A DNA stretch of 45,404 nt from Acidithiobacillus sp. (lineage in GTDB: Bacteria; Pseudomonadota; Gammaproteobacteria; Acidithiobacillales; Acidithiobacillaceae): assembly GCA_028697715.1 (NCBI GenBank), contig JAQVDS010000020.1:1-45404 (forward strand), written 5' to 3'. The position numbers and the translations under genes were made by a program. This document shows positions 5,826-40,610 of this stretch, in pieces. The notes under the pieces are model-generated. The model made no database searches, was not told the DNA's origin, and saw only the letters and a list, made by a program, of their open reading frames with translations. Numbering within the stretch: position 1 is the stretch's first letter; every line of letters starts with the position of its first letter.

Positions 5826-7025
5826 CTATCGAACGTGATTTTTTATGCGCCAGCGGGAACGTGCTGGAATTTTGCTACTTTGACAGCGATGCTGATATTT
5901 GTCAGCAACTTCAGACACTTCAGCCAAAAGCCCAGCAGAAAGGGTAATGGGCTGTAACCCCAGGTTTTGCAACCCCTGGTTTTCCACTTGGAGCTCATTT
6001 TCTACCTGTTCATTGCGGGGGTTGTCAACGAATTGCATTTCCGCGCCGGTGAGTTCATGAATCAGTCGGGCCAGGTCGCGCACGCGATGGGTTTCCGTGG
6101 TTTGGTTAAATACCCGAACGCGCTCTCCGGTCGCGGGTGGGTGCTCGATTGCCAAGCGAATGCATTGTACGGTATCGCGAATGTGAATAAAGGCGCGAGT
6201 CTGGCCCCCGGTCCCGTGCACCGTAAGGGGGTGGCCAACCGCCGCTTGCAGAATGAAGCGATTGAGAACGGTGCCAAAATCGCCATCGTAGTCAAAGCGA
6301 TTGATCAAACGCTCGTCGCGCAGAGTCTCAGTAGTCTCCGTACCCCAGACAATCCCCTGATGCAGATCAGTAATCCGCAGCCCGTCGTTCTTGTTGTAGT
6401 AATAGAAAAATAATTGATCCTGGGTCTTGGTCATGTGGTAAATAGATCCGGGATCTGGCGGATAGAGAATTTCCGTCTCTTCTCCTTCTTCCTGATTTTC
6501 GTGGGACAAAATCCGTACGCGCTGATATCCCTCCGGTAATTTGAATCGCGAAGTTTTGTAGCCATATACCCCCATCGTTCCTAAATGAACCAAGTGGGTA
6601 TGCTCCTCTAGACCATTTTCGACAATGGCACAGAGGACATTATGGGTGGCATTTAGATTGTTATCTACAGTAAAGCGTTTGTGCCAGGAAGACTTCATGG
6701 AATAGGGTGCCGATCGTTGTTCGGCAAAATGGACAATGGCATCCGGGCGCCACTGCCCGATCAGTTTCTTGAGTTCAGCGTAATCGCGAGCGATGTCCAG
6801 CGTGCTGAGGCCCAGATCGCGTCCGCTGACTTCGCGCCAGGCTTCGATGCGCTCCGAAAGCGGGCGGATCGGCGTCAGCGACTGCACGCCCAGTTCCTCG
6901 TCCTGGCGACGGCGCACAAAATTATCGACGATATGTAGCTCGTGGCCTCGGGCTGAGAGGTGCAGGGTCGTCGGCCAACCACAAAAACCATCACCACCCA
7001 ATACCAGAATTCGTTTTTGCATCAT
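5826..7025 (-). CDS. sqdB: UDP-sulfoquinovose synthase
   Basis: Makes UDP-sulfoquinovose from UDP-glucose and sulfite, the head-group donor for the phosphorus-free membrane lipid SQDG. The 399-residue protein is an extended short-chain dehydrogenase. It has the SQD1/SqdB-specific NAD-binding motif GGDGFCGW (10-17), the DNFVRRR segment, catalytic T150 (LGTMGVYG) and the Y196-x3-K200 pair (YHMTK). These match plant SQD1 and separate it from ordinary sugar epimerases. It is transcribed alone, divergently from the MFS gene, with a two-unit Pho box upstream (7102-7123), so induction by phosphate starvation is expected. In a sulfur oxidiser sulfite would be readily available (inference). Confidence 0.93.
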   Translation of the reverse strand: MMQKRILVLGGDGFCGWPTTLHLSARGHELHIVDNFVRRRQDEELGVQSLTPIRPLSERIEAWREVSGRDLGLSTLDIARDYAELKKLIGQWRPDAIVHFAEQRSAPYSMKSSWHKRFTVDNNLNATHNVLCAIVENGLEEHTHLVHLGTMGVYGYKTSRFKLPEGYQRVRILSHENQEEGEETEILYPPDPGSIYHMTKTQDQLFFYYYNKNDGLRITDLHQGIVWGTETTETLRDERLINRFDYDGDFGTVLNRFILQAAVGHPLTVHGTGGQTRAFIHIRDTVQCIRLAIEHPPATGERVRVFNQTTETHRVRDLARLIHELTGAEMQFVDNPRNEQVENELQVENQGLQNLGLQPITLSAGLLAEVSEVADKYQHRCQSSKIPARSRWRIKNHVR

Positions 7026-7101
7026 GAGTCGTTCCTATTATTCCTTGTGGAAGAGTAGGCGAGAGTCGGGCATCATGGCAATGCTCAGCAGATTGGCAGG
7101 G

Positions 7102-7123
7102 AATATGACAAAATTATTACAAA
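7102..7123 (-). promoter_or_regulatory. Pho box of sqdB
   Basis: On the minus strand two adjacent 11-bp units, TTTGTAATAAT (7113-7123) and TTTGTCATATT (7102-7112), form the tandem arrangement bound by PhoB. A weak -10, CAATCT (7090-7095), follows at a distance consistent with PhoB replacing the -35 element. Confidence 0.6.
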
Positions 7124-7149
7124 TAGGGTGCGGCCCGCTGATCTGCCAC

Positions 7150-7171
7150 GTTCATAAAAGTGTCATAATAA
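7150..7171 (+). promoter_or_regulatory. Pho box of the MFS transporter gene
   Basis: Two adjacent 11-bp units, GTTCATAAAAG (7150-7160) and TGTCATAATAA (7161-7171), closely match the PhoB consensus CTGTCATAAAA. They are followed by -10 candidates TATGCT (7172-7177) or TACCCT (7177-7182). The gene starts at 7214. Confidence 0.7.
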
Positions 7172-7213
7172 TATGCTACCCTTTGACTTTCGTCAGAACA
7201 CGCAGGTACATTT

Positions 7214-8602
7214 ATGGATGCGATCAACGCTCTCGATCGGCAGGCGGTCACGCGGAAACATCGGCGCATATTGTGGGCCTCAGGTTTGGGCATTTTTCTC
7301 GATGGCTATGACCTCAGTATCATGGCGATCGCGCTGATTCTGCTCAAGGAGCAATGGCATCTGACGCCATCCGAATTAGGGGGGCTGGGTACGGCGGCGC
7401 TGGTCGGCGCGCTGGTCGGCGGATTATTCGGTGGACCGATTGCCGATCGCTGGGGGCGCAAAACGATCTACCTGATCGATATCGCCGCATTTTTCTTCGC
7501 GGCATTGCTCTCCGGCTTTGCCTGGGATGCCACATCACTGATCGTGTTGCGTTTTTTTCTGGGGCTCGGTGTGGGGGCAGACTACCCTCTGAGCTCCACC
7601 TACATGGCCGAATTCCTCCCTAAAAAATCACGTGGTGCGGCCATGATCTGGATTTTTGGGCTGTGGATGGGAGGGGCACTGGTATCGAGTATCGTTGGGC
7701 TTCTTCTTCTGCATACCGGTCCCGACGCCTGGCGATGGATGCTGGTTTCCGGCGCAGTACCGGCGGTGCTGGTGCTGTGGCTGCGGCGTAATTTGCCGGA
7801 GTCACCGCGTTGGTTCATCCGCCGTGGCCGTCTGCAGGAGGCCAGCGAAGTCGTCACTTGGCTCGCGCCGCAACTCAGTGAACCCGAACGGCACGTCGCG
7901 TTGCAGGAGCTGGCCGCCAGCATGGATGGGGCAAAGCAACACAATTGGTTCGATCTGTTCGGCAAAACCTATCTTCGCCGCACTCTCTATGCCGCCATCC
8001 CCTGGTTTCTGATGGACGTGATGGGATACGCCATGGCCATCTTCCTACCTATCATGCTGTTGCATCTGGGGCTACGCACGCAGGAGCAGGCGGTGATCGG
8101 GAATGCGCTTTTCACGGCAAGCTTTGTCTTCGGCTGGGTACCTCTGGCCCTGCTCATTGACCGAATCGGTCGGCGCAAGACGCAGATCTGGGGTTTTCTC
8201 GGGGATGCCGTCGGTCTGGCACTGGTTGGTGCCTTCGCCCTAACGGGGCAACCTCCCTTCACTATCGTCGCCGTGGGACTGATCCTTTTTCAGGTCGCCA
8301 ACAGTTTCGGGCCCGGCAACACTACTTGGATCATTCCCACCGAGCTCTACCCGACCGAGCTCCGCGCCAGCGGTCATGGTTTCAGTACGGCATTCAGTCG
8401 GGTCGGTGCTGCAACCAGTGTCTTTTTGTTGCCCATTCTCCAGGCACATTTAGGCATTGGTGGCTTGCTGCTCATCCTGGCTTCCGCGGGCCTGTTGGGG
8501 GCAGTGCTGACGCAGGTCCTGGGGGTAGAGATGGCGGGCGAGACCTTACCGGAGACGGGTGGCAAGCCGGATCCCGAGGTGATTGTCCGGGAAGCGGCCT
8601 GA
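7214..8602 (+). CDS. MFS transporter, PHS-like, probable phosphate or phosphoester uptake
   Basis: Twelve-helix major facilitator of 462 residues in the sugar-porter/PHS group. It shows the N-terminal FLDGYDLS helix, loop motif DRWGRK, the GVGADYPLSSTYMAEF segment near residue 122 that resembles the GGDYPLS signature of the phosphate:H+ symporter (PHS) family, and the second DRIGRRK loop at mid-protein. PHS members import inorganic phosphate or glycerophosphodiesters. A clear Pho box lies upstream and neighbours are phosphate-starvation genes, so phosphate or phosphoester import is the best inference. Other organic-acid MFS porters share much of this architecture. Its stop codon directly abuts the stop of the convergent glycosyltransferase gene. 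Confidence 0.75.
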   Translation: MDAINALDRQAVTRKHRRILWASGLGIFLDGYDLSIMAIALILLKEQWHLTPSELGGLGTAALVGALVGGLFGGPIADRWGRKTIYLIDIAAFFFAALLSGFAWDATSLIVLRFFLGLGVGADYPLSSTYMAEFLPKKSRGAAMIWIFGLWMGGALVSSIVGLLLLHTGPDAWRWMLVSGAVPAVLVLWLRRNLPESPRWFIRRGRLQEASEVVTWLAPQLSEPERHVALQELAASMDGAKQHNWFDLFGKTYLRRTLYAAIPWFLMDVMGYAMAIFLPIMLLHLGLRTQEQAVIGNALFTASFVFGWVPLALLIDRIGRRKTQIWGFLGDAVGLALVGAFALTGQPPFTIVAVGLILFQVANSFGPGNTTWIIPTELYPTELRASGHGFSTAFSRVGAATSVFLLPILQAHLGIGGLLLILASAGLLGAVLTQVLGVEMAGETLPETGGKPDPEVIVREAA

Positions 8603-9619
8603 CTACGTCCCCTGCGCCGGAACCAGGTGGCGGAGAAAATCCGCCGTGCATTTGTCCCAGCTATACTGCAGGGCGGCGTTGCGACAGTCGTCGCGGCGCA
8701 GGTCCAGCGCAAGAATGGCTGCCTCCCGCAGGTCATCACGCAGGAAGCCGTTGATGCCATCGACAATACTCGCTTGCGGACCTGTGACCGGGTAAGCCGC
8801 CACGGGTACGCCACAGGCATTCGCCTCGCGTACTACGAGACCGAGGGTGTCGGTGCGGCTGGGAAAGACCATGACATCGGCAGCTGCCACATGGCGGCTC
8901 AGCTCCTCGCCGTGCTGCATGCCATGCCAATGCACATCCGGGTATTGTTCACGCAACTCCGCAGCCTGCGGTCCGTCGCCAATGATGTGCTTGCTGCCCG
9001 GCAGTTCGAGGCGAAGAAAATCTTCCACATTCTTTTCGATGGCCACCCGACCAAAATACACGAAGGCTGGACGCTTTCCCGGAAGCAAGGCGGCCGAATC
9101 CTGATCTGGCCAGGGACGAAAGAGATCGCTATCGACGCCGCGGCTCCACTGCACCAGATTGCGGAAACCCCAGCCCCGCAATTCGTCGGCCAAAGCGACA
9201 TTGGACACCATGGTGCGCGCGGCACCATTATGGAACCAGCGCAGAAAAGCATAGCTCCAGGCGAGGGGTACGGGGGATCTGGCGGCTAGATATTCCGCAA
9301 ATCGAGTATGGAAGGACGTGGTGAACTGCCATTGGTGGCCTGCGCACCATAGCCGTGCGGCAAGGCCAAGTGGCCCTTCGGTAGCAATGTGTATGGCGTC
9401 TGGGCGGTATTCCTGGAAAGTCTGTCGGACCAGGGCGAAAGGCTGGGTAGCAAGAGGGATTTCTGGATAGCTGGGGCAGGGTATGGTGGCACCAGCACCG
9501 CTATGAAGCACCTGCACTTCGTGCCCAAGCCTTTGTAGTTCCTGTACCGTCGCCTGTAGGGCGCGGACGACTCCATTCACCTGGGGGGACCAGGCATCGG
9601 TAACCAAGGCGATTTTCAT
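8603..9619 (-). CDS. agt: Diacylglycerol glycosyltransferase, Agt/SqdX-like (GT4)
   Basis: GT-B glycosyltransferase of family 4, 338 residues. The N-terminus is MKIALVTDAWSPQVNGVV, followed by IHIATEGPLGLAARLWC, TTSFHTRFAEYL, WSRGVDSDLFRP and the nucleotide-sugar motif near TLGLVVREANACGVPVAAY. This pattern matches the Agt group that glycosylates diacylglycerol during phosphate starvation, and the related SqdX/SQD2 enzymes. It starts at an ATG inside the upstream phosphoesterase stop (ATGA). PlcP and Agt neighbour each other in other bacteria where PlcP makes diacylglycerol and Agt caps it with a sugar. Since sqdB has no separate partner in this window, Agt may also use UDP-sulfoquinovose; this is inference. 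Confidence 0.82.
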   Translation of the reverse strand: MKIALVTDAWSPQVNGVVRALQATVQELQRLGHEVQVLHSGAGATIPCPSYPEIPLATQPFALVRQTFQEYRPDAIHIATEGPLGLAARLWCAGHQWQFTTSFHTRFAEYLAARSPVPLAWSYAFLRWFHNGAARTMVSNVALADELRGWGFRNLVQWSRGVDSDLFRPWPDQDSAALLPGKRPAFVYFGRVAIEKNVEDFLRLELPGSKHIIGDGPQAAELREQYPDVHWHGMQHGEELSRHVAAADVMVFPSRTDTLGLVVREANACGVPVAAYPVTGPQASIVDGINGFLRDDLREAAILALDLRRDDCRNAALQYSWDKCTADFLRHLVPAQGT

Positions 9620-10425
9620 TCTGTCTCCAGATCTGGCCAACGAACCAGCCGTAGGGTGCCGTCAAAGTCCTCGACCAAGGCTGTGCAGCTCTCCACCCAG
9701 TCGCCATCGTTGTAGTATTCAATGCCGTTCATCCACTTGATTTCGGCGTGATGGATATGGCCGCAGACCACGCCGTCATAACCGCCCCGGCGGCATTCCC
9801 GGGCGACGAATTCCTCATACTGGCTGATGAACTGAACGGCACGCTTGATACGATGTTTAATAAAGGCGCTCAAGGACCAATGGCTGCGGATTCCCAGCAG
9901 TCGATTGAGGCGCTGATGCCATCGGTTTAGAGTCAGCAACAGGCTGTAGCCGCGGTCGCCCAGATGCGTGAGCCAGCGGGCATAGTGCATGCTGAGGTCG
10001 AATTGGTCGCCGTGGGTGATCCACAAGCGATGTCCGTCGGCGGTTTGGTGGACACAATCCGGAACAATCCGGATTTCTCCCACAGCGAGTCGGTGCTCGT
10101 CGCCTTCCAGAAAGGAGTCCAGCAGACCCAGAACGGGATCGTGATTGCCCTGTACGTAGGTGACCCGCACCCCTGCCCGGGCCTGACGCAGCACCTTCTG
10201 AATGACGGTGCTGTGGGCAACAGGCCAGTACCAGCGCCGTTTCAGGGCCCAGAAATCAATGATGTCGCCCACCAGATAGAGGTACTCGGCTTCGTAGTGG
10301 CGAAGAAAATCAAGTAATGCCTCGGCCTGACAGCCCTTGCTACCCAGGTGGATGTCGGAAACAAAGATCGCCCGGCAGTTGCCGCGCCAGGTCTTGGGGA
10401 GGGAGGCTTGCTGCAATTCGGTCAT
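9616..10425 (-). CDS. plcP: PlcP-type metallophosphoesterase (phospholipase C)
   Basis: Calcineurin-like phosphoesterase of 269 residues with the complete metal site: D24 and H26 (FVSDIHLG), D54 (LVGDIID), N94-H95 (QGNHD), H138 (THGD), H223 and H225 (CGHIHH). The family is often labelled UDP-2,3-diacylglucosamine hydrolase, but the LYLVGDIIDFW, WYWPVAH and NDGDWVESCTA segments are those of the PlcP group, which removes head groups from phosphatidylcholine-type lipids in phosphate-limited Sinorhizobium and marine bacteria. It overlaps the start of agt by 4 nt, the usual PlcP-Agt pairing. LpxH activity cannot be excluded from sequence alone. Confidence 0.82.
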   Translation of the reverse strand: MTELQQASLPKTWRGNCRAIFVSDIHLGSKGCQAEALLDFLRHYEAEYLYLVGDIIDFWALKRRWYWPVAHSTVIQKVLRQARAGVRVTYVQGNHDPVLGLLDSFLEGDEHRLAVGEIRIVPDCVHQTADGHRLWITHGDQFDLSMHYARWLTHLGDRGYSLLLTLNRWHQRLNRLLGIRSHWSLSAFIKHRIKRAVQFISQYEEFVARECRRGGYDGVVCGHIHHAEIKWMNGIEYYNDGDWVESCTALVEDFDGTLRLVRWPDLETE

Positions 10426-10518: not shown

Positions 10519-10562
10519 TGTCATAAAAGTGTCATAAAAGATTCATAAAAACGTAACATAAA
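10519..10562 (+). promoter_or_regulatory. Four-unit Pho box array
   Basis: Two identical units TGTCATAAAAG (10519-10529 and 10530-10540) are followed by ATTCATAAAAA (10541-10551) and a degenerate CGTAACATAAA (10552-10562), all in exact 11-bp register. A -10-like TACACT (10568-10573) follows. This is the best Pho-box match in the window and stands before the PhoB-like regulator gene, with plcP-agt on the other side. Confidence 0.8.
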
Positions 10563-10622: not shown

Positions 10623-11408
10623 ATGATCTATGCCTTCATCGCTGGAAGTATGCATCACGCCATACACCTGCGTGATCTCTTGACCCTGCTTGCCGCCACC
10701 CGCTGGGAGGAGATCAATCCACTGTATCATGCACGCGTGATGCTGCATGGCGATGGACCCTTCACCGATTCTCTGGAAAAGCGGTTGCGTAGCCAGCGGG
10801 CCGTGCCCAGGCAGGTACAGAATGTTGCGGCGCTCGGTACACAGTTGCGGCAGTGGTCGCCGCAGCTGCTGATTTTCGCTGACTGGGGCAGCCAGCTGGC
10901 TGCCACCTTGCAGGAGAGTCAGGAACAACTTCTCCATTGTGGCACAGCGGTTATGGCGCTCGGTCCTGAGGGCGACGAGGAGGCGATGATCGCCCTCGAC
11001 GCCGGCGTCAATGTCTACGTGGGAACGCCTGCCAGCGAGGCACTGGTGCTGGCCCAAGCGAGTGCGCTGCTACGTCATGGGCACGCCTGGGAACAAGTGG
11101 CGATCGATATTCCGGGGATCCTGCGTATAGATCCGGAAAGTCGTCGTGTATATATCTTCGACCAAGAATTGCACCTGAGCAAACGGCTGTTCCACTTGTT
11201 TCACTACATGGCGCAGCAGTCGGAACGTGCCTTTTCGCCGATGGAGATCGCCCAGCACCTAGCGATGAGCAAGAGGCAGGTGCAGCAGAACACCGTTGCC
11301 GCGCAGATTCACCGTCTACGCAAGCGGATGGAGGAAGTCGGGGCCTCCAGCTGGTTGCAGACTGTGCACGGATTTGGCTATCGACTAAGCATTCCGCGTG
11401 CGAAATAA
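10623..11408 (+). CDS. Atypical PhoB/OmpR-like response regulator
   Basis: Protein of 261 residues. The C-terminal 95 or so residues form an OmpR/PhoB winged helix (RVYIFDQELHLSKRLFHLF through VHGFGYRLSIP). The N-terminal half resembles a receiver domain only loosely: it lacks the acidic pair after the first strand, the phospho-acceptor region reads LIFADWGSQ, and the TKP motif is replaced by VYVGTPAS, so the switch Lys is missing. AGGGG precedes the ATG by 7 nt. No histidine kinase is adjacent. With a four-unit Pho box upstream it is probably PhoB-induced and may fine-tune or extend the phosphate response without ordinary phosphorylation. It is unlikely to be the main PhoB. Confidence 0.75.
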   Translation: MIYAFIAGSMHHAIHLRDLLTLLAATRWEEINPLYHARVMLHGDGPFTDSLEKRLRSQRAVPRQVQNVAALGTQLRQWSPQLLIFADWGSQLAATLQESQEQLLHCGTAVMALGPEGDEEAMIALDAGVNVYVGTPASEALVLAQASALLRHGHAWEQVAIDIPGILRIDPESRRVYIFDQELHLSKRLFHLFHYMAQQSERAFSPMEIAQHLAMSKRQVQQNTVAAQIHRLRKRMEEVGASSWLQTVHGFGYRLSIPRAK

Positions 11409-11419
11409 GGCCTTTCAAG

Positions 11420-11463
11420 TGTCATATTTTTGTCATCCAGGCTTCATCATAGTGTCACATGAT
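11420..11463 (+). promoter_or_regulatory. Four-unit Pho box array of the exbB operon
   Basis: Units TGTCATATTTT (11420-11430), TGTCATCCAGG (11431-11441), CTTCATCATAG (11442-11452) and TGTCACATGAT (11453-11463) lie in 11-bp register, 42 nt before the exbB start. A weak -10 around GATACGCT (11467-11474) follows. Confidence 0.7.
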
Positions 11464-11504: not shown

Positions 11505-12191
11505 GTGAACATCGCTTACCTCGTACATCTGGCCAACTATTCCGATGGTATCCTATATGTCCTGATGGCTCTGTTACTGATCGAACTGGCCGTCATGGTC
11601 GACCGCTTCTGGTACCTGCGCCGCACCTTGGCGCGTGGCGACGCCATCGTCCATGAACTGGCCGATCACGGTCGCCTGGACCGTGCCATACTCGACCGTC
11701 TAGCCGAACAGGCCAGCGGTCTGCCGGAAGCGAGCCTGTTGCGCATGGCGGCCAGTCATGCCGGCCAGGTCAAGGGCGATGCCCTGGCCAACCGCCTGGA
11801 AGAAGCGGTGATCGTGCTCGCTCCCCAACTCGACCGCCGTCTCTGGTTGCTCGATACCATCATCACCTTGGCACCGCTGCTCGGCCTTTTTGGTACGATT
11901 ATCGGCATGTTCCACGCCTTCCATGTGTTGGCAGCGCCGGGCCACGCACCCACGGAAGTTACCGCGGGCGTCGCCGATGCCCTGGTGGCCACGGCCTCTG
12001 GTCTTTTTATTGCCATTTTGGGCCTGCTCACCTTCAACGCCTTCAACAATCAGGTACGCATGATCCTGTTGCAGCTCGATTCGGTGAAGACCATGTTGCT
12101 CAATCGCATGGATGGACAGCCCATGCTGCATCCCGATGCCGATCCCAGTGAATCTTCAGTGCAGCCAGTAGCCATGGCGAGGGCCGGCTGA
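11505..12191 (+). CDS. exbB: ExbB/TolQ-type proton channel subunit
   Basis: Inner-membrane MotA/TolQ/ExbB proton-channel protein, 228 residues. It has a first helix near 17-37 (DGILYVLMALLLIELAVMV), a cytoplasmic loop, and two C-terminal helices including LAPLLGLFGTIIGMFHAF and the VADALVATASGLFIAILGL segment, with the conserved Thr and Ser/Ala residues of the family. It uses the proton gradient to energise TonB with ExbD. It starts at GTG with AGGAG 9 nt upstream, and is the first gene of an operon with exbD, tonB, an RNase T2 and a Tat-exported phosphoesterase behind a Pho-box array. TolQ is less likely because tolAB are absent. Confidence 0.88.
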   Translation: MNIAYLVHLANYSDGILYVLMALLLIELAVMVDRFWYLRRTLARGDAIVHELADHGRLDRAILDRLAEQASGLPEASLLRMAASHAGQVKGDALANRLEEAVIVLAPQLDRRLWLLDTIITLAPLLGLFGTIIGMFHAFHVLAAPGHAPTEVTAGVADALVATASGLFIAILGLLTFNAFNNQVRMILLQLDSVKTMLLNRMDGQPMLHPDADPSESSVQPVAMARAG

Positions 12192-12589
12192 TGGAGCGGC
12201 GTTATTTCGAACGCAAGAAGGGGCGCGTCGAGATCATCCCGATGATTGACATCATGCTGTTTTTGCTGGTGTTCTTTATTATGATCACGATCCAGATGAT
12301 TCCGGACCAGGGCCTCAATCTGCAGCTGCCGCAGTCGAGCGAGGCGAAGCAGTTGCCACGCCCTCACATGACCATCAACATCCAAGAGGATGGTACGGTG
12401 GTGGTCAAAAATCAGCACTATGATCTGGCGGGCCTGGAGAGTCTTATCCGTGGAGACGGCGATCCGAGCAAAACTGTGATTACCATTGCCGCGGACAAGG
12501 CCGTGGCCTACCAGAAGTTCATCAACGTCATGGATACCTGCCAGAAGGCGGGTGCCAGCGATATCGGCCTGGCGGCCAAGGCGAGCTGA
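12191..12589 (+). CDS. exbD: ExbD/TolR-type energy-transducing protein
   Basis: Single-span ExbD/TolR protein of 132 residues. The helix MIDIMLFLLVFFIMI carries the essential membrane Asp at D20, equivalent to D25 of E. coli ExbD, and is followed by a periplasmic domain with the INIQEDGTVVV strand motif. Its ATG shares a base with the exbB stop (TGATG), so translation is coupled. It works with ExbB and the adjacent TonB to power transport across the outer membrane. Confidence 0.9.
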   Translation: MERRYFERKKGRVEIIPMIDIMLFLLVFFIMITIQMIPDQGLNLQLPQSSEAKQLPRPHMTINIQEDGTVVVKNQHYDLAGLESLIRGDGDPSKTVITIAADKAVAYQKFINVMDTCQKAGASDIGLAAKAS

Positions 12590-12590
12590 G

Positions 12591-13301
12591 ATGAGTGCTG
12601 TACTGTCTCCGCGTTCCTCGGCGTTCCGGCCCAAAGGGTATTTCGGTCGGGCGTTGATCATCGGTGCTGTCATCGAGCTTGCCCTGCTGGCAGGACTGAT
12701 CTGGGTCAGCAACCAGAAGAGTCCACCGCCACCGCCCAAGTCTAAGCGGATTGCCATTCATATGGTGCAGCCGCCCAAGCCCAAGCCGGTGCCGCCAACA
12801 CCCAAGCCGGTGGTGCACCCTAAACCGGTACCCAAGCCGATTCCGCATCCGGTACCGAAGCCGGTTCCGCACCCAATTCCACACCCGGTAGTGCATCACG
12901 CGCCAACGCCCAAACCTTTGATGGCCAAGACGCCCATGCCCACGGCACCCGTCGTGCCGCCAGCACCCCCGGTGACGCCGCCGCCAGCACCGAGTCCGGC
13001 CCTGGCAGAGGCCGCCATCGCCAGCTATGCGGCCTTGGTGCGCGCACAGGTGCAATCTGCTGCCCATGTACCGGAAGCGGTACGGCTGATGCACCTGAGC
13101 GGTACGGCGGTGATCAGCTTTGAGTTGACGCCCTCTGGGCGATTGCTTTGGGCGCGGCTGGCGCAATCAAGTGGAGTGGGCGCGATTGACCGCGCCGCCT
13201 TGCAGGCGGTCAAGAGCGGAACGTATCCGCCGTTTACCAAAGACATGCCCAAAAAGGCGACGGTATTTGATGTAGAAGTGCATTTGTCTGCTAAATCATA
13301 A
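12591..13301 (+). CDS. tonB: TonB-like periplasm-spanning protein, His/Pro-rich
   Basis: TonB-family protein of 236 residues, starting 1 nt after exbD ends; an open frame beginning 105 nt earlier is not the true start. It has a membrane anchor at about 17-40, a long Pro/Lys/His spacer at about 49-135 made of repeated HPxP and PKPV units, and a C-terminal TonB domain (from about 150) containing VRLMHLSGTAVISFELTPSGRL. The spacer holds at least six His residues, more than usual, which would be charged in an acidic periplasm. No TonB-dependent receptor is encoded nearby, so the partner receptor is elsewhere. Confidence 0.87.
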   Translation: MSAVLSPRSSAFRPKGYFGRALIIGAVIELALLAGLIWVSNQKSPPPPPKSKRIAIHMVQPPKPKPVPPTPKPVVHPKPVPKPIPHPVPKPVPHPIPHPVVHHAPTPKPLMAKTPMPTAPVVPPAPPVTPPPAPSPALAEAAIASYAALVRAQVQSAAHVPEAVRLMHLSGTAVISFELTPSGRLLWARLAQSSGVGAIDRAALQAVKSGTYPPFTKDMPKKATVFDVEVHLSAKS

Positions 13302-13341
13302 TATTGCCCAGGCACGAATAGCCGGCAATCAGGAGGGAGTT

Positions 13342-14142
13342 GTGAAAAAATTTGCGCTTGCGTGTTTGGCGCTGTTGAGTCTGTTTGTAGGGGGCGTCCA
13401 GGCCGAGACAGCCGTCGTCCCGGTTGTTCCGAACCTACGCTTTGCACACTACACCTTCGCCATGCTTTGGCAGCCTGGCGTTTGTGCCACCTGGACACGA
13501 ATAGGTGCCGCTTGTAACGATCTGACGCCTGCGTCGCGCGCCAGCCAGCAGTGGAGTCTGCACGGTCTCTGGGCTAGCCGCCCGCAACAGCTCATTGCAA
13601 GTGGAATGGAGCCCAAGACCTGGTGGCAGCACGGCTGTTTTTGGTTCCGGAATCAGAGTATGGCCCCCCACGACAGTTGTTCCTTGCCATCCCTCGAACT
13701 GTCGCCCGCAGTCAGCCGCGAGTTGACCGCCAATATGCCCATGCGCAAGGTCTGCCTGGATCGCCATGAATATTACAAACACGAGGCCTGCATCGGGGAA
13801 AAGCCCGATCCCTTTTTTCAGACGGCCCTGCGCTTGTTGGGGGACGTCAATGCCAGCAGTTTTACGGCATACGTGCGGGATCACCATGGGCAATGGGTCA
13901 AGCGCAACGATCTGTTGCGCGCTTATGGTACGGCATTTCATCTTCCCAATGCGAAGTCTCTCGAACTGCGTTGCGAGAGTAAGGACAACCATAGCGGCCA
14001 CGAGCTGCAGGGTGAGGGAAGCATCCTCACCGAGGCATGGATCACCATCCGTGCCGATGCCCTCCAGGAGTTTCCTCGCCCAGGCGCGTTTATGGCTGGA
14101 CGGAAGGGAAATTGCGCAAAACTCATCCACATTTTACCCTAA
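13342..14142 (+). CDS. Secreted ribonuclease T2
   Basis: RNase T2-family endoribonuclease of 266 residues, with a Sec signal peptide ending near AQA-like VQA at residue 21. Both active-site blocks are visible: CAS I WSLHGLW with H74, and a CAS II variant HEYYKHEAC with H142, E143, K146 and H147. Several Cys residues (C48, C58, C99, C112, C138, C150) could form disulfides. It starts at GTG after AGGAGGG. The enzyme would degrade periplasmic or extracellular RNA to nucleotides. Its place in a Pho-box operon followed by a phosphoesterase suggests phosphate scavenging from RNA. Confidence 0.85.
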   Translation: MKKFALACLALLSLFVGGVQAETAVVPVVPNLRFAHYTFAMLWQPGVCATWTRIGAACNDLTPASRASQQWSLHGLWASRPQQLIASGMEPKTWWQHGCFWFRNQSMAPHDSCSLPSLELSPAVSRELTANMPMRKVCLDRHEYYKHEACIGEKPDPFFQTALRLLGDVNASSFTAYVRDHHGQWVKRNDLLRAYGTAFHLPNAKSLELRCESKDNHSGHELQGEGSILTEAWITIRADALQEFPRPGAFMAGRKGNCAKLIHILP

Positions 14143-14145
14143 GAC

Positions 14146-14151
14146 AAGGAG
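14146..14151 (+). promoter_or_regulatory. Ribosome site favouring a TTG start
   Basis: AAGGAG lies 6 nt before TTG (14158) but 15 nt before the next in-frame ATG (14167). The spacing favours the TTG start for the phosphoesterase gene, adding three residues before the twin-arginine signal. Confidence 0.5.
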
Positions 14152-14157
14152 CGTATT

Positions 14158-15729
14158 TTGCAATCCATGAATCGTCGTTCATTTTTGAAGCATCTGGGTC
14201 TGGGTGCCGGTGCCGCCGTTGCTGGCCCGCATCTGTTGGGTGTGGCCCATGCGGCTGGCGTCAGCAGTGAGCAGATGCTGCGCAGCAAGATCGAGCATGT
14301 CGTAGTGATTTTTCAGGAAAACCGGAGTTTTGATCATTACTTCGGGACATTTCAGCCGCGCAATGGCCAAAAGGTGGTCAATCTTTTGGACGCTGCTGGA
14401 AAAATCGATCCGCGCTTTACTAACCTGCAAAAAAATCCTGCGGGCATCCCTTACGCCAATCTACCATTACCCACGGAAATTCCGGCTTTTACCCAGGCGA
14501 CCTTGCCGAACCAGCCATTTCATCTGGCGCCGTTCATCCCCGCCAAGGGTAACGTGCGCTGGGATCCCAAGCACCGTTTCTTCCGCATGATGGCAGAGGT
14601 CAACAACGGCAAGATGGATCTTTTCGTGGCGCTGGCGGGTGGTGCCCACAGGCACCTCAGTCGCGACGAGTTTCGCAAGATGACACCGGCGCAGATTGCC
14701 TTTGATCTGGCCCGGCCCAGCGGCCCGGTGCTGGGTTATTATGAGGCGGCGGACCTGCCGTTTTACCACCGCATGGCGCATGAATATGTGCTCTTTGATC
14801 ATTTCTATCAGGCCATGAGCGGCGGGAGCACGGGAAATGCGCTGTATCTGGCGGCGTGCCGCTCTTGCGTCAATCCCAGCGTCCCAGACGAAAATGTTGC
14901 ACCCTTCGATCCTCGTGAGGCGGGTCTGCAGCACGCCTTCTTCGACCTGCCTTACGACCATCGTCGCGTGATGGTGAACGACCTGCCACCGTTGCAGGGT
15001 CCGACCAACGCCGGTGAGCCGAAAATATTGAAGATCAGTCCGCCTCCCGCCGCTCAGACCTACGACAACATTGGCGATCGCCTCAACGCCGCCAAGGTCG
15101 ACTGGTCCTGGTATAACGAAAACTGGAATCGGGTAAAGCCCTGGGCCCTGAAAACCGCCTTTGGTCCAGGAGATGGCTCTGCTGTGGTGGAAACCTCACA
15201 GCTCTACGTCGCCCACCACAATCCGTTCCAATACTATCCGCGCTGGTTTGATTACGTTCGGGATGGGCACATGCGCGATGCCGACGATTTTCTGGAAGAT
15301 GCGCGGCAGGGGAAACTCCCCGGCGTATCCTTCATCAAGGCGAGTGCTGCGCATGACGAACATCCTGCCGATTCTGCTGCCGCAGTGGGGATGGAGTGGG
15401 TCGAGCGCTTGGTTCGTTCGGTAGGAGAGGGGCCAGCCTGGGAAAAGACTGCTATTTTCATCGCCTATGACGAGGGCGGCGGCTTCTGGGATTCGCTGCC
15501 ACCCAAGGTGGTAGATGAGTACGGTTTCGGTACCCGCGTTCCGGCACTGCTGATCAGTCCCTGGGCGCGTCAGGGTCTGGTGGACCACCATCTGGCAAGT
15601 ACGGCCAGTATCCTCAAGTTCATTGAAACCCGCTTTGGCTTGACGCCACTCAATCATCGCGACCGCGATGCCTACGACATGCTCGGAGCGTTCGACTGGG
15701 GGCAGCGCCCGCGCAGTTTTTCGCTGTGA
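14158..15729 (+). CDS. Tat-exported phospholipase C/acid phosphatase
   Basis: Phosphoesterase of the PF04185 family (phospholipase C/AcpA acid phosphatase), 523 residues. A Tat signal peptide begins NRRSFLKHLGLG, with R6-R7 counted from the TTG start, and ends near the AHA site around residue 36. The family active-site region FQENRSFDHYFGTF follows at about 52-65, with DHFYQAMSGGSTGN and AYDEGGGFWDSL downstream; the latter holds metal-binding residues of the fold. It would release phosphate or head groups from phosphoesters in the periplasm. It is last in the exbBD-tonB-RNase T2 operon. The substrate (lipid or small phosphoester) cannot be decided from sequence. Confidence 0.87.
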   Translation: MQSMNRRSFLKHLGLGAGAAVAGPHLLGVAHAAGVSSEQMLRSKIEHVVVIFQENRSFDHYFGTFQPRNGQKVVNLLDAAGKIDPRFTNLQKNPAGIPYANLPLPTEIPAFTQATLPNQPFHLAPFIPAKGNVRWDPKHRFFRMMAEVNNGKMDLFVALAGGAHRHLSRDEFRKMTPAQIAFDLARPSGPVLGYYEAADLPFYHRMAHEYVLFDHFYQAMSGGSTGNALYLAACRSCVNPSVPDENVAPFDPREAGLQHAFFDLPYDHRRVMVNDLPPLQGPTNAGEPKILKISPPPAAQTYDNIGDRLNAAKVDWSWYNENWNRVKPWALKTAFGPGDGSAVVETSQLYVAHHNPFQYYPRWFDYVRDGHMRDADDFLEDARQGKLPGVSFIKASAAHDEHPADSAAAVGMEWVERLVRSVGEGPAWEKTAIFIAYDEGGGFWDSLPPKVVDEYGFGTRVPALLISPWARQGLVDHHLASTASILKFIETRFGLTPLNHRDRDAYDMLGAFDWGQRPRSFSL

Positions 15730-17129: not shown

Positions 17130-17879
17130 TCAGCCGGGTTCGTAGACCAGCCGCACCCGGGAGGCAGGGTACAGCACGGTAGAAAACTCGATGCCGACCC
17201 CGGCAGGATCGACGTTGACGTTTTCACAAAGCAACAGACATTCGCCCTTTGCCAATTGCAGGAGCTCGCGCTCCGTGGCTTGCGCCAGAGATGACTGGAT
17301 GGTGGAGCGCATGCGGGTGTAATCCTGCACGCCACGCAGGCGCAGTGACTCGGTAATCCCGCGCCCGGCACGCAGGTCTTCCACCAGTGGCAGCAAGTGT
17401 TCACCAAAGAAGAGATGACGGGCGACGGAGATGGGTTCGTTGCCAACGAAGCCCAGGGTCTTGACCATGGCGACCCGCGGAAAATCCGGGAAAACACCAT
17501 AGGACTGGATACGGCGCAGTTCGGGCAAATCCGCTAGGTCCAGAATTTTTGCTTCCAGTATCTGATTGTGTCCAGGCTTCTGGTATTTCTTGACCCATTC
17601 AGAAAAGCGCGGACGCTGCATTAATTGGTAATCAAACTGGGGTTGGGTGACGAAGGTCCCAATGCCATGCCGGGTTTCTGCCACCCCCAAGTCGCAAAGC
17701 TGTTGCAATGCGCGGCGCAGGGTATGGCGATTGACGCCATATTCCTCGGCCAGAAACTGCTCGCTCGGCAAGCGCTCGCCGCTCGACCACTCCTTGGCCT
17801 CGATGCGTGCGTAAAGGTCTTCGGCAATCTGTTTCCAGATACTGATGCCGTTCTGAAAGTTGGTGATTTGTATGGGCAT
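17130..17879 (-). CDS. phnF: GntR/HutC-family regulator PhnF
   Basis: Transcription factor of 249 residues with an N-terminal GntR winged helix (SGERLPSEQFLAEEYGVNRHTLRRAL, residues ~33-58, then HGIGTFV wing) and a C-terminal UTRA effector domain. It matches PhnF, the repressor linked to phosphonate operons. A much longer open frame continues upstream, but it runs in the wrong frame across phnN and the 2H protein, so the ATG at 17879 is used. It follows phnN by 5 nt and is last in the phn operon. Confidence 0.87.
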   Translation of the reverse strand: MPIQITNFQNGISIWKQIAEDLYARIEAKEWSSGERLPSEQFLAEEYGVNRHTLRRALQQLCDLGVAETRHGIGTFVTQPQFDYQLMQRPRFSEWVKKYQKPGHNQILEAKILDLADLPELRRIQSYGVFPDFPRVAMVKTLGFVGNEPISVARHLFFGEHLLPLVEDLRAGRGITESLRLRGVQDYTRMRSTIQSSLAQATERELLQLAKGECLLLCENVNVDPAGVGIEFSTVLYPASRVRLVYEPG

Positions 17880-17884
17880 GGCAG

Positions 17885-18418
17885 TCAGTCTAGCAAATTC
17901 CGCAGGATCATGAGCAGATCCGTCAGCGCATCTTCCACGGCGCCGTTGTTGGAGATAGAAAAATCCACCACGTCTGGGCGAAGAGGGACTTGGCGCGCCA
18001 GGCGTTCGGAAATCGCGTTGGTAGATTCCCGATCCCGCGCCAGCAGGCGCGCGCGGCGAATCTGCGGGTCGGCATCGATGAGGATCGTGCTGCCCCCCAG
18101 AGTCTGGCGCAAGCTGGGCAGGGTCTGGCGCGATACACTGACCACTACCAGGCGACCATCCTGGGGCAATGCCGACCAGGGTAGCGCGTACTCCCAGCCA
18201 TGTGCCTGCCAGGAAAGGGCAAGCCAGCCCTGTTTTTCGAGGGCCGCGAGGTCCTCGGGTGATACGTATTCTTCTCCCCAGGCGGGCTGCGGCCGGGTCA
18301 CCAAGCGTCTGGCAAAATAAATGCGGGGATCGGCGCATAACGCCTCTTGGGCAAGGCGGAGCAGGGTGTCTTTCCCTGCCCCGGAGGGGCCGGCCACCCA
18401 GACGAAGGATGATTTCAT
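17885..18418 (-). CDS. phnN: Ribose 1,5-bisphosphate phosphokinase
   Basis: Guanylate-kinase-like enzyme of 177 residues that phosphorylates ribose 1,5-bisphosphate to PRPP, a late step of the C-P lyase route. The P-loop GPSGAGKDT is at residues 10-18, with RRLVTRP and the SVSRQTLP/DADPQIRRARLLARDRE lid region following. Its ATG overlaps the stop of the 2H-phosphoesterase gene. PRPP can also feed nucleotide and amino-acid synthesis, which may explain retention despite loss of the lyase genes from this locus. Confidence 0.9.
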   Translation of the reverse strand: MKSSFVWVAGPSGAGKDTLLRLAQEALCADPRIYFARRLVTRPQPAWGEEYVSPEDLAALEKQGWLALSWQAHGWEYALPWSALPQDGRLVVVSVSRQTLPSLRQTLGGSTILIDADPQIRRARLLARDRESTNAISERLARQVPLRPDVVDFSISNNGAVEDALTDLLMILRNLLD

Positions 18419-19071
18419 CCGCGGGTTCCCAGGGGAATTTCCGCGATGACCCGGAAGGGGCCTTCGGCATCGTCTTGCACCAAGAGCGCAAGGGAGCGCA
18501 AAAAACGGGGACGAAGGAGGACTTCTGAGAAAAACTCCTGTGCCTGCGGTAGCCAGGCATCGGGCTCGGGAAGTGCATCGCTCAGGGTCAGGTGAAAGAC
18601 AAAATCGGTAAAGATATGTGGATATCCCCAGTGCCGTAACTGCGCTCGCTGCCGCTCGCTGTAGCTGGCGCGGTCCCGGCGTCGAAGCTCGTCCTCATCG
18701 TAGGGACGACGGAAAGAATCCAGTTCCCGGACACAGGCATCGGCCAGGGCATGCAATTCCGGGCAGGGTTGCATCAAACGCAGGCTCAGGAAGGCATCAT
18801 CCAGCACCAGACGCAAATCCGGAAGGCGAAACGGCTCATGCTGCTGCAGCAGAGAGCGGGTCGCCGCTTCGAGATCTGCGAGAGTACCCTGGAGGGGCAT
18901 GGGCGCCTTGATGGTGGCGTGGAAGCCATAAGCTTGGGCGCGCCCCGCCGGTACCTGTGGATAGGGTCGGGAGACTGCGCACGCTGTGCGGCTGTCCCAG
19001 CCCAGCCAGCGACTTCCGCACTTCCACAGCGGATCATCGGCCGGCGGCAAATAGTAGAGAGCGACACGCAT
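18415..19071 (-). CDS. DUF1045 2H-phosphoesterase-like phosphonate protein
   Basis: Protein of 218 residues from ATG 19071; a TTG 9 nt earlier is possible. It belongs to DUF1045, found in phosphonate operons. Two HxT motifs typical of 2H phosphoesterases are visible, FHATIK and FHLTLS, supporting action on a cyclic phosphodiester. In C-P lyase pathways PhnP opens 5-phosphoribosyl 1,2-cyclic phosphate, and DUF1045 may fill that role (inference). It starts 5 nt after phnM and overlaps phnN. Confidence 0.83.
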   Translation of the reverse strand: MRVALYYLPPADDPLWKCGSRWLGWDSRTACAVSRPYPQVPAGRAQAYGFHATIKAPMPLQGTLADLEAATRSLLQQHEPFRLPDLRLVLDDAFLSLRLMQPCPELHALADACVRELDSFRRPYDEDELRRRDRASYSERQRAQLRHWGYPHIFTDFVFHLTLSDALPEPDAWLPQAQEFFSEVLLRPRFLRSLALLVQDDAEGPFRVIAEIPLGTRG

Positions 19072-19076
19072 GGTTC

Positions 19077-20216
19077 TCAACCGACGCGCTCGCCCGCACG
19101 CCAGACTCCGCGCAGGGTCACCAGCCCGTCCTGATAGCGCACGCGCAGCAGATCTGCGCGCTGTCCGGGGGTCAGACTTCCGCGATCTTCCAGACCCAAT
19201 AGCCTTGCTGGACTACTGGTGACCATGGCTATGGCCTGCGGAAGGGAGGCGAGCTTCCGCTCGGCCAGGAGGAAAGCCGCCTCCAGTAAGGAGCTCGGGT
19301 AGTAGTCAGAGGCCAGGGCACTGACTACGCCCTCCCGCACCAGATCAGCCACCGCCACATTGCCGGAGTGGGAGCCACCGCGGACCAGATTGGGGGCGCC
19401 GGCCACCGTCGCCATGCCCAGATCCACGGCGTGCCGAGCGGCGGCAAGAGTCACCGGAAACTCGCTGATACGAATGCCATCGTGTGCGTTGCGTTCGATT
19501 TCTTCTGGCGAGACGTCGTCGTGACTCGCTATCGGTAGGGGACCGTCGCGTAGCAGCTCGAGAATGAAGGCGCGATTTTGGGCGCTATAGCGATGGTGCC
19601 TTTCCTGTGATTCCGCAATGCGCTGCTCCAACTCCTCTTCGCTAAAGCCCTCCGCGCGGCGCCCCGAGCGGAATTTTTCGAGATTGGTGTGCTGTCCCAC
19701 CCCCGGAGTGTGATCCATCAGACTGAGCATCTGCACTGGTCCTGCGGCCAGGCTTTCCTGCAGTAGCTGCGGCAGATTGGCCACCGGTAATTCGCAACGG
19801 AGATGCAGGAAATGCTCGGCGCGCAGCTGATCGCCAGCGCGTAACTGTTGCAGGTCAACCAGGGCGTCACGTAAGGTCTGCACCCGTTGCGCCTCGAAGC
19901 CGGCGTCACCAACGCAGAGGGCGTCGGCAACGCTGGTGATTCCTGCTGCGATACATTGGGCATCGTGCGCCAGAAAGGCCGAGCGCGAGGGCCAGCGGGC
20001 CAGCGTCCGTGGCTGTACCTGCCGTTCCAGATTGTCCGTATGGATATCCACCAGGCCCGGAAGCAGGAAATCGCCAGCACAGTCGAGGAGTTCCGCGCTA
20101 CTCGATGATCCCTCGTCCAGGACCCGGATCTTGCCGTCATCATCCAGCAGTAGTGAACCCAGCACGACTTCATCGGGCAGAACCAGGCGGGCGTTGCGAA
20201 ATCCACGCATCTTCAT
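19077..20216 (-). CDS. phnM: Alkylphosphonate triphosphate diphosphatase PhnM
   Basis: Amidohydrolase-superfamily enzyme of 379 residues that removes pyrophosphate from ribosyl 1-phosphonate 5-triphosphate. The metal motif GLVDIHTDNLERQ, the SLMDHTPGVGQ stretch, the ASHDDVSPE segment and the GAPNLVRGGSHSGN loop all match PhnM. The start at 20216 overlaps the stop of a phnL remnant (TCATGA), preserving the ancestral gene junction; the in-frame extension upstream is not coding. First intact gene of the reduced phn operon. Confidence 0.92.
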   Translation of the reverse strand: MKMRGFRNARLVLPDEVVLGSLLLDDDGKIRVLDEGSSSSAELLDCAGDFLLPGLVDIHTDNLERQVQPRTLARWPSRSAFLAHDAQCIAAGITSVADALCVGDAGFEAQRVQTLRDALVDLQQLRAGDQLRAEHFLHLRCELPVANLPQLLQESLAAGPVQMLSLMDHTPGVGQHTNLEKFRSGRRAEGFSEEELEQRIAESQERHHRYSAQNRAFILELLRDGPLPIASHDDVSPEEIERNAHDGIRISEFPVTLAAARHAVDLGMATVAGAPNLVRGGSHSGNVAVADLVREGVVSALASDYYPSSLLEAAFLLAERKLASLPQAIAMVTSSPARLLGLEDRGSLTPGQRADLLRVRYQDGLVTLRGVWRAGERVG

Positions 20217-20374
20217 GAGTAGGCATCTCCAGCGGCAAGGGTAAGTTCGCGGTCGGCAAGCTTTCGAATCTGTTGCGGGTCGTGCAGGATGAGCAGAATG
20301 CCGCGACCATTCTCCTTGGCCCGCCGAATTTCGGTAAGAATCAGGGCGGAAAGAGGTTGCCAATCGTCCCGATC
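20213..20374 (-). pseudogene. phnL: C-terminal fragment of PhnL-like ABC ATPase
   Basis: From an in-frame TAA (20375-20377) to the stop at 20213, a 53-codon frame reads like the end of an ABC ATPase: PLSALILTEIRRAKENGRG, then ILLILHDPQQIRKLADREL, with the H-loop His after a hydrophobic strand. PhnL precedes phnM in C-P lyase operons, and here the fragment's stop overlaps phnM in the usual way. Walker A, signature and Walker B are all missing, so this is a deletion remnant. The 20375-20511 stretch upstream shows no recognisable gene. Confidence 0.7.
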
Positions 20375-20511
20375 TTATTGCGATCACTTACAAAACGACA
20401 TGCTGGCGATGCGCAAAACAATTCTACCGAGTGTCCGTGGATGAAGAGGTTGAGTACGGCGTCCGTTGCCGGATTGGGAGCAAAGTATGTCCAGGGCTGC
20501 CGAGCCAGAAG

Positions 20512-39130: not shown

Positions 39131-39158
39131 CCCTGGGTTTTCTGCTTCAGTCCCAGGG
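39131..39158. terminator. Possible bidirectional terminator
   Basis: CCCTGGG (39131-39137) and CCCAGGG (39152-39158) form a perfect 7-bp inverted repeat between the convergent small unknown gene and the CYTH-CHAD gene, overlapping the latter's last codons. The loop is 14 nt and carries a TTTT run on one side. Weak candidate. Confidence 0.35.
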
Positions 39159-40610
39159 GCGGGGGGCCTGACGGAAGCGCTCCCAGTGTTTGTAAAAGCG
39201 CTTGCTTTCCCGCTCCCTCTGCGCCTCCAGATAGCCAAGCAGGATCCCTGCATTGAAACCAAGGGCACTATAGTGGTCTCCCGGAGGAAAGAGCTGCGGC
39301 AAGTCCTGGTGGGCAACTTGTGCATCACGGATGATTCCGGCTGCATCCAATAAGGCATGTAACTGTTTGCTGAACGCCTTGCCATCTTTGCTTGGCCAGA
39401 GTTCGGAAACATGACGCAGGACATCACGCAGATTTTTGAGCGCAATGCGCAGCCGATGGAATTGTGCAATTTGCTTCGGCTCCACAAAAACCAAATGCTC
39501 ATCCATCCGCCGCAGGCGCTCCTCCACGTAGTTGCGCAAAGTCTGCTGGCTCTGCAGTGAGTTACGCAGTAGCTGTGACCACAAGGCGAGGAGTTCCGCG
39601 GCAAGCCGCGCCCGAGAATCGACACGGGGATCACGCGTCGTTTTGCGTGCATCGCGTAGAACCTCTTGCAACGGTGTCGCGGGCAGAGAAAAACGCGGGG
39701 CGATGCTTTGCCAATGCTCGGCGAGAGCGTCCAGATCCCGTTGCAGGCTCTGTTCGTGAAACCACACCGCCAGACCGTTGCGTACGCCACGCAGGTGATC
39801 TTCGGGATCTGTGCCCTTGCTGAAGCGCAACAATGCACGCAGCGCGCGAACCTCTTTGCGCAACTGGTGCAGGGCGTCGTGCTCGTCGAGCTGCAGCCAT
39901 GCCAAGCCACCGAGAATGGTCTGCGCGGAGTGGATGAGGAGGCGGCCAATAGCGTCCCCCGCATTGTCCCGCCCGCGAATGGTAGGTGGATTGGGTTTCG
40001 CTACGGGGATCTCTTTTCCGACCAGCGCACTGGCGCGTGCCAGCTTACTGGCATCATCCGGGCACAGGGGCAAACTGGCGCAAAGGGCGCTGGCCAGTTG
40101 CAGGAGATCGGCAAGCTCTCCCTCCTCCAGTTCCAGTTCGATCTCGTGAATCGCTCGTGTCTGGCCGGCAGCGCGAATCTCTCCCCAATCTGCAGCGAGT
40201 AAGATTCGGGCATCCTGATAGCAGATTTCGTGCTCCCGGCGCTGAAAAACGGTTTCGATGATCGGAGCGAGCGCCAGATTCAGGTGTGGCGCGAGCAGCG
40301 TGCGCAGGGTCTCGTCAGTCGCAAAGACGCCCAGATCCGGCTTCTTGCTGCGCACCGACAGATTCCACTCGGGACGCTGGTGCAGCCCTCCCTCGGCGCT
40401 CCCTGCAAGTTTGATGGTGGCAACCCAATCTCGGCCTTCTTTACGCACCCGATACGCGATTCCTGCCACGCGTAGGGCGCCATCCGCACTGTCATAGTAG
40501 ACGGCGTGCATCTCTTTAGCGGCTATGCTGCCACTGTCTACTAGGGGATGACGCAGGATTTCCTCCCACAGCTCCGGGTGCAATACCTCGAGCTTGACCT
40601 CACGCTCCAT
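39147..40610 (-). CDS. CYTH-CHAD protein (polyphosphate-associated)
   Basis: Two-domain protein of 487 residues. The N-terminal CYTH domain begins MEREVKLEV with the ExExK signature (E2, E4, K6) of triphosphate tunnel enzymes; the C-terminal CHAD domain (~220-487) has repeated His/Arg helices, including HQLRKEVRALRALLRF and HRLRIALKNLRDVL. CYTH enzymes hydrolyse inorganic triphosphate, and CHAD domains bind polyphosphate granules. It is the last gene of folD-ppk-parA-CHAD and overlaps parA by 11 nt, linking it directly to polyphosphate synthesis. Confidence 0.88.
   Translation of the reverse strand: MEREVKLEVLHPELWEEILRHPLVDSGSIAAKEMHAVYYDSADGALRVAGIAYRVRKEGRDWVATIKLAGSAEGGLHQRPEWNLSVRSKKPDLGVFATDETLRTLLAPHLNLALAPIIETVFQRREHEICYQDARILLAADWGEIRAAGQTRAIHEIELELEEGELADLLQLASALCASLPLCPDDASKLARASALVGKEIPVAKPNPPTIRGRDNAGDAIGRLLIHSAQTILGGLAWLQLDEHDALHQLRKEVRALRALLRFSKGTDPEDHLRGVRNGLAVWFHEQSLQRDLDALAEHWQSIAPRFSLPATPLQEVLRDARKTTRDPRVDSRARLAAELLALWSQLLRNSLQSQQTLRNYVEERLRRMDEHLVFVEPKQIAQFHRLRIALKNLRDVLRHVSELWPSKDGKAFSKQLHALLDAAGIIRDAQVAHQDLPQLFPPGDHYSALGFNAGILLGYLEAQRERESKRFYKHWERFRQAPRPWD

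Follow-up and report, generated by a model that had tools for sequence, protein, structure and literature searches.

PlcP–Agt lipid remodelling and the synthesis of the sulfolipid sulfoquinovosyl diacylglycerol (SQDG) are known as separate routes. As far as the accessible parts of the sources go, the Agt-type glycosyltransferase (GT) of SAR11 makes glucosyl- and glucuronosyl-diacylglycerol (DAG) (PMC4796936; PMC8231724), the Agt1 enzyme of Pseudomonas aeruginosa takes UDP-glucose as its only donor (PMC8528852), and Sinorhizobium meliloti makes SQDG under phosphate limitation, with both sqdB and plcP under Pho control (PMC10315480). Six arrangements around plcP have been described, and in the accessible part of that account no sqdB neighbour is named, sqdB appearing in the discussion alone (PMC4796936). 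The titles and abstracts that the searches listed, a coverage outside which most subscription journals fall, hold no report of SQDG in Acidithiobacillus or of an sqdB–plcP–agt linkage. The subject here is a stretch of 45,404 nt from an Acidithiobacillus sp. (contig JAQVDS010000020.1), called the window below, in which open reading frame (ORF) and family or profile searches place sqdB, plcP and an Agt-family GT gene in one locus, as a sequence-only reading had proposed.

What is new is the association of a subclade of Agt-type GTs with sqdB. The locus is probably one of phosphate-starvation lipid remodelling, in which PlcP, SqdB and the GT together give SQDG. It is suggested, with somewhat less confidence, that an Agt-type GT retuned by a Phe-to-Leu change in the donor pocket and by its partnership with SqdB may well add a third type of SQDG synthase to the two represented by SqdX/SQD2 and SqdD, and that one phosphate-controlled locus would thereby swap phospholipid for sulfolipid directly in sulfur-oxidising acidophiles and several other gammaproteobacterial families. 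Under phosphate starvation, PlcP would free DAG from phospholipids, SqdB would make UDP-sulfoquinovose, and the Agt-family GT encoded with plcP would transfer sulfoquinovose to the PlcP-made DAG, yielding SQDG without SqdX or SqdD; the gene identities (by homology), the plcP–GT overlap, the Pho-type repeats, the recurrent linkage with sqdB and the altered donor-site residue are observed, whereas PhoB control, a supply of SqdB with sulfite from sulfur oxidation, and all three enzyme activities are inferred.

Identity of the three lipid genes

The three genes lie on the minus strand, with sqdB at 5826..7025, the GT gene at 8603..9619 and plcP at 9616..10425. The plcP and GT genes overlap by four bases (ATGA, 9616-9619), and therefore look like one operon; an intervening plus-strand gene for a major facilitator superfamily (MFS) transporter, absent from the sequence-only reading, separates sqdB from this pair. 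The GT, 338 aa from an ATG at 9619, is a member of glycosyltransferase family 4 (GT4; PF13439, PF13692) and, from its place in the trees, a predicted sulfoquinovosyltransferase of an sqdB-linked subclade. The best named database relative of the window SqdB is a protein of Acidithiobacillus sp. YTS05 with 98% identity, which agrees with the earlier view of the host as an acidophilic sulfur oxidiser.

SqdB of the window matches SQD1 with a phmmer E-value of 4.8e-93, and shares 59% identity with S. meliloti SqdB and, across the part that aligns, 46% with Arabidopsis SQD1. It scores 338.8 bits against NCBIfam model NF041015 (cut-off 575); since S. meliloti SqdB also falls below that cut-off (332.1 bits), the window protein is filed as an S. 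meliloti-type SqdB and not as a member of the model. The Thr and Tyr-x3-Lys triad of SQD1 is present, as are the Agl3 residues His95, Arg101, Met145, Tyr182 and Lys186, at each of which an alanine mutant of Agl3 is inactive according to the accessible part of the source, which also describes the Glu147 alanine mutant as impaired (PMC4388408). At the Glu147 position every one of the 57 rows of the window branch has Val, the window and S. meliloti proteins included, so that this glutamate is apparently not required in S. meliloti-type SqdB. The gene is predicted to encode an active UDP-sulfoquinovose synthase, which would work on UDP-glucose and sulfite.

By identity, S. meliloti SqdB falls within the window SqdB type. 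Among 15 other genomes with this type, several of them draft metagenome-assembled genomes (MAGs), 13 have a single match of the SqdB family at E<=1e-50; six of these are cyanobacteria, including Xenococcus, Moorena and Pleurocapsa, in which SQDG is expected. Window-type SqdB has an SqdX-type GT as its neighbour in one cyanobacterium and in two Chloroflexi. In a distant SqdB branch (the second copy of L278, L282-L293, L295, L310 and L311), Pro occupies the Arg101 position in 16/16 rows; this Arg is kept in SQD1 and the window branch and gives an inactive Agl3 when changed to Ala. The distant SqdB-like proteins may not be sulfoquinovose synthases.

With the LpxH model, which has a cut-off of 190.35 bits, the metallophosphoesterase encoded by plcP gives 41.2 bits, and a better LpxH candidate is a protein on another contig of the same genome (162.9 bits, itself below the cut-off). 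The phylogeny sets 25 PlcP rows apart from 14 LpxH-like ones at a support of 100, the PlcPs of S. meliloti and P. aeruginosa (44.8% and 49% identical to the window protein, respectively) falling on the PlcP side; in this tree the LpxH labels, except that of L046, come from weak hits and sequence motifs, and of 15 stretches one yielded no ORF. The sequence-only reading had set PlcP against LpxH as a point on which it could fail, and the window PlcP groups with characterised PlcP. Score and tree together contradict an LpxH identity; by the tree the protein is a true PlcP, for which phospholipid-cutting activity is predicted.

The sqdB-linked GT subclade and its donor site

In the GT tree, the window GT stands among Agt-type, mostly plcP-paired GTs (plcP lies within 3 kb in 61 of the 77 GT rows), and three SqdX-type rows form the outgroup. 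It is 48% identical to the plcP-linked GT of P. aeruginosa and 32% identical to the SqdX-type protein found beside the window SqdB type, and the motifs with the catalytic Asp, His, Arg, Lys and Trp of SAR11 GTcp are conserved in it, as mapped by motif and spacing with GTcp itself unaligned. The comparison of Agt with SqdX that had been proposed thus places it with Agt. On tree position and the 32% identity, membership of SqdX is rejected; so is SqdD, being a member of glycosyltransferase family 8 (GT8). The SqdX-type label is an assumption that draws on the neighbouring sqdB and an N-terminal motif; no NCBIfam model gives the protein that name. For further SqdX references, the plasmid collection gave no matches and viral contigs eight weak ones.

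For S. meliloti and P. aeruginosa, sequences were taken from plasmid-collection records. A plcP–GT pair resembling the lipid-remodelling genes of the chromosome is present on three P. aeruginosa plasmid records; in L334 (pHOU1-1), the one of them examined, cyaB comes next. From this plcP–GT–cyaB order, PA3217 being cyaB, L334 is taken to correspond to PA3219-PA3218. The record CP090106.1 (S. meliloti Ak57), named pSymB, is 3.7 Mb long with ruvAB and tol genes, and looks like a mislabelled chromosome.

Seventeen of the 18 sqdB-linked GT rows fall into a single 19-row clade, the remaining two members of which are G004 and G005. Support for the clade is 89 by the Shimodaira–Hasegawa-like approximate likelihood ratio test (SH-aLRT), 95/78 in a careful tree of 64 of the 80 rows (without six long or outlying rows and 10 near-copies) and 97 in a tree of 205 rows; in L071 the GT is in two pieces, and the longer one alone was entered. 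The earlier proposal of an Agt joined to the sulfolipid route therefore holds as to family, by the tree, but this is not a plain Agt that happens to stand beside a sulfolipid gene: the subclade travels with sqdB.

This linkage was followed through 370 Gammaproteobacteria genomes, with at most five SqdB and five GT candidates scored per genome, so that absences are soft. SqdB matches occur in 29 genomes, 16 with the window type (at least 58% identity) and 13 with a distant type only (35-44%); the GT occurs in 62 (E<=1e-60) and PlcP in 107 (E<=1e-30). Nine of the 16 genomes with window-type SqdB have the GT (G000, G009, G010, G043, G137, G154, G186, G253 and G279), and in all nine it shares a contig with sqdB, at no more than 3 kb in eight and at about 11 kb in G010. 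Among the genomes with the distant SqdB, the GT appears in one of 13 (G057), beside plcP and on a contig other than that of sqdB. Five gammaproteobacterial families have such a GT beside sqdB, in some cases with plcP far away. The plcP gene shares the cluster in G000, G154, G253 and G279, with the order GT–sqdB–plcP as one run in G154 and G253 and with sqdB divergent from plcP–GT in G279; it is on another contig in G043 and in G137 (Thiohalorhabdus sp. Cl-TMA, the GT of which is identical to P0215), and about 29 kb off in G186. The GT–sqdB pair without plcP is also present in A. ferrianus, A. ferrivorans and one MAG. Within 29 genomes of the Acidithiobacillaceae, PlcP is universal (29/29), the GT (at least 60% identity) is in 14, intact SqdB (at least 77%) is in 12, and both are in 12; intact SqdB is therefore in 12/14 genomes with the GT versus 0/15 without it (Fisher p 1.8e-6, uncorrected for kinship).

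The subclade also differs at the donor site. In the window GT, the Phe of the Agt-typical D-T-F-G motif (for which the L334 protein of P. aeruginosa has Tyr) is replaced by Leu259, encoded at 8843..8845 on the minus strand, a position read from the sequence. By motif spacing, D-T-[L/F]-G matches T257-F258-G259 of GTcp, whose Phe258 lies in the donor pocket and whose F258A mutant is almost inactive, according to the accessible part of the source (PMC8231724). Residue 259 is Leu in 19/19 GTs of the clade versus Phe in 48, Tyr in six and Gln in one of 55 others, a count made without L270 (Tyr, sqdB-linked, outside the clade) and without L079 and L081 (34%-identical Acidithiobacillus GTs). Among 120 database relatives Leu is found in 14 and Phe in 106, and Leu is absent from the seven intact GTs of plasmid records. 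R. leguminosarum L338, which has four stops and in which the Leu is a frame artefact, was not counted. In the tree of 205 rows, the Leu rows other than SqdX, 33 in number, all lie in one 35-row clade (support 97).

Pho-type boxes and neighbouring genes

Pho-type boxes, which are tandem 11-bp repeats with a TGTCAT core, occupy three intergenic gaps. One box faces sqdB (7105-7121, minus strand, 11/12 core bases) and is also present in the two nearest relatives (L067 and L068), another faces the MFS gene (7150-7166, plus strand, 10/12), a run of half-sites faces a regulator gene (10519-10546, plus strand, 12/12 for the first pair at 10519-10535), and further boxes precede exbB (11420-11447, plus strand, 12/12 at 11420-11436). 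With at most two mismatches the window holds seven matches, some overlapping, versus a mean of 2.58 (standard deviation 1.63) in shuffled sequence, in which 1/100 shuffles reached seven; six of the seven are in the three gaps. The same 12/12 motif stands on another contig, downstream of phoB and of what looks by eye like a sensor kinase gene. Of the sites claimed earlier, the box before sqdB is confirmed, and the array between plcP and the regulator exists but faces the regulator; array-driven expression of plcP finds no support in the window.

In the seven nearest loci, L067-L073, sites of at least 10/12 recur in the plcP–regulator and regulator–exbB gaps in 7/7, and in the sqdB–MFS gap in 4/7 (L067, L068, L070 and L071). 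More broadly, a box of at least 9/12 is found in the orientation of sqdB in 4/18 sqdB rows checked, among them those of the window and of the two relatives closest to it, and in the orientation of plcP in 6/17 rows, the window not among them; the background is 24 of 634 overlapping 300-nt stretches at window positions 13000-45000. Taken from these sites, Pho control of sqdB, the MFS gene, the regulator and exbB is likely.

The regulator (10623..11408, plus strand) is a PhoB-like winged-helix protein with PF00486 only (TIGR02154, 79.7 bits), an odd N-terminus and no receiver domain by Pfam; a full PhoB is encoded on contig C56 (303.8 bits). It is possibly a local, phosphorylation-independent regulator. 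The MFS gene (7214..8602, plus strand) encodes a sugar-porter or phosphate:H+ symporter-like protein (PF00083, 6e-65) that resembles phosphate:H+ symporters weakly (TIGR00887, 162.6 bits, below the cut-off of 610.3) and has its own Pho-type box upstream. Behind the 12/12 box, exbB, exbD and tonB are followed by genes for a ribonuclease I/T2-like protein and a Tat-signal phosphoesterase of the PC-PLC/acid phosphatase family (11505..15729, plus strand), an arrangement that recurs in L067-L071 and that looks, from its gene content, like one for phosphorus scavenging from RNA and phospholipid. Further along, at 17130-20387 and 39147-43324, there are genes for a PhnF-like regulator, a DUF1045 phosphonate protein, PhnM, and polyphosphate kinase with a CYTH-CHAD protein; judged by its predicted genes, phosphorus metabolism is richly represented in the window.

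Alternative readings and known systems

The alternative that survives best, itself rather unlikely, is that two routes run in parallel, as the sequence-only reading implied: PlcP and the GT would give glucosyl- or glucuronosyl-DAG, while the UDP-sulfoquinovose from SqdB would go to a different transferase encoded elsewhere in the genome. In its favour, most members of the GT family are paired with plcP without sqdB (50 of 77 GT rows), the 48%-identical GT of P. aeruginosa has a counterpart in PAO1 Agt1, which uses UDP-glucose only in the accessible part of the report (PMC8528852), and G004 (91% complete) and G005 (61%) carry a subclade GT with plcP, sqdB not having been found in either. Against it, the subclade GT adjoins sqdB even where plcP is far away, its presence tracks SqdB and not PlcP, and its donor-site residue is altered. 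Moreover, a search of the rest of the genome with the window GT as query turned up no full-length SqdX-like GT but only two weak partial matches, whose alignment to the SqdX-type protein is confined to about 110 C-terminal residues, while SqdD-type (GT8) proteins were not searched for genome-wide. Because the subclade travels with sqdB, a single SQDG route is more likely than two parallel glycolipid routes.

Several observations, besides the plcP-paired majority of the family and the two genomes just named, weigh against a single SQDG route. Among the genomes with window-type SqdB, 7/16 have no GT among the candidates scored, and G027 has a distant SqdB (40%) without a clade GT. In G020 (A. 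ferruginosus CF3, L135) sqdB is incomplete and in pieces and the clade GT is absent, as if sqdB and GT were being lost together. In G009 (A. sulfuriphilus), plcP is on another contig than GT–sqdB; both pieces are near contig ends, so they may adjoin. The sqdB-linked GT of G279 lies outside the clade on a long branch and carries Tyr, two Phe rows (P0165 and P0183) sit inside the Leu clade of the 205-row tree, and the SqdX-type GTs have Leu in the cyanobacterial one and Phe in two of three (Chloroflexi L117 and L104). The last of these leaves a universal Leu code for sulfoquinovose unsupported; given the Phe in two SqdX-type GTs and two Leu-clade rows, Leu259 is best read as marking the clade; it sits in the donor pocket and may bear on donor choice, but does not amount to a proven donor code. 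The SAR11 Agt-type enzyme accepts three donors, so that Agt-type enzymes can be promiscuous. As to regulation, no site of at least 9/12 lies in the orientation of plcP within 300 nt upstream of the window plcP, and L074 and L226, two of the more distant sqdB-linked loci, lack any Pho-type site of at least 10.

There is a small chance that SqdB instead feeds a surface glycan, the linkage with lipid genes reflecting shared Pho control only. Agl3 of Sulfolobus is a precedent, in the accessible part of its description (PMC4388408), and on two plasmids the window SqdB type is beside other glycosyltransferases, on one of them also beside a sulfotransferase; however, no glycan genes are among the window ORFs scanned, and the recurrent partner in five families is a GT of the DAG type. 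That "plcP" is really LpxH, of lipid A synthesis, in a locus unrelated to lipid exchange, has a negligible chance: databases call the relatives of the window PlcP UDP-2,3-diacylglucosamine diphosphatase, but its score far below the LpxH cut-off, the higher-scoring protein elsewhere in the genome and the fully supported split of the tree all speak against it.

If the GT does use UDP-sulfoquinovose, phospholipid-derived DAG would be turned directly into an anionic sulfolipid able to replace phosphatidylglycerol. A type of SQDG synthase would then have gone unrecognised in non-photosynthetic Gammaproteobacteria, Leu259 would be a residue for testing donor choice in Agt enzymes, and bioleaching bacteria would spare phosphate by means of sulfur, replacing phosphorus lipids with sulfur lipids.

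The locus shares features with three described systems. With the PlcP–Agt remodelling of Agrobacterium, SAR11, Erythrobacter and P. aeruginosa (PA3219-PA3218) it has in common a plcP–GT operon, a GT4 enzyme and Pho-type boxes nearby; it adds sqdB, a GT of the sqdB-linked subclade and Leu in place of Phe or Tyr, with UDP-sulfoquinovose as the predicted donor. Like SqdB–SqdX of cyanobacteria and SQD1–SQD2 of plants, it pairs a UDP-sulfoquinovose synthase with a GT4 enzyme, but the window GT, at 32% identity, groups with Agt-type GTs. With SqdB–SqdC–SqdD of S. meliloti, the sqdB of which is Pho-regulated in that organism, it shares the SqdB branch (59% identity); whereas a GT8 (PF01501) protein is beside sqdB in the S. 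meliloti record and plcP is about 1 Mb off, the window has a GT4 gene joined to plcP.

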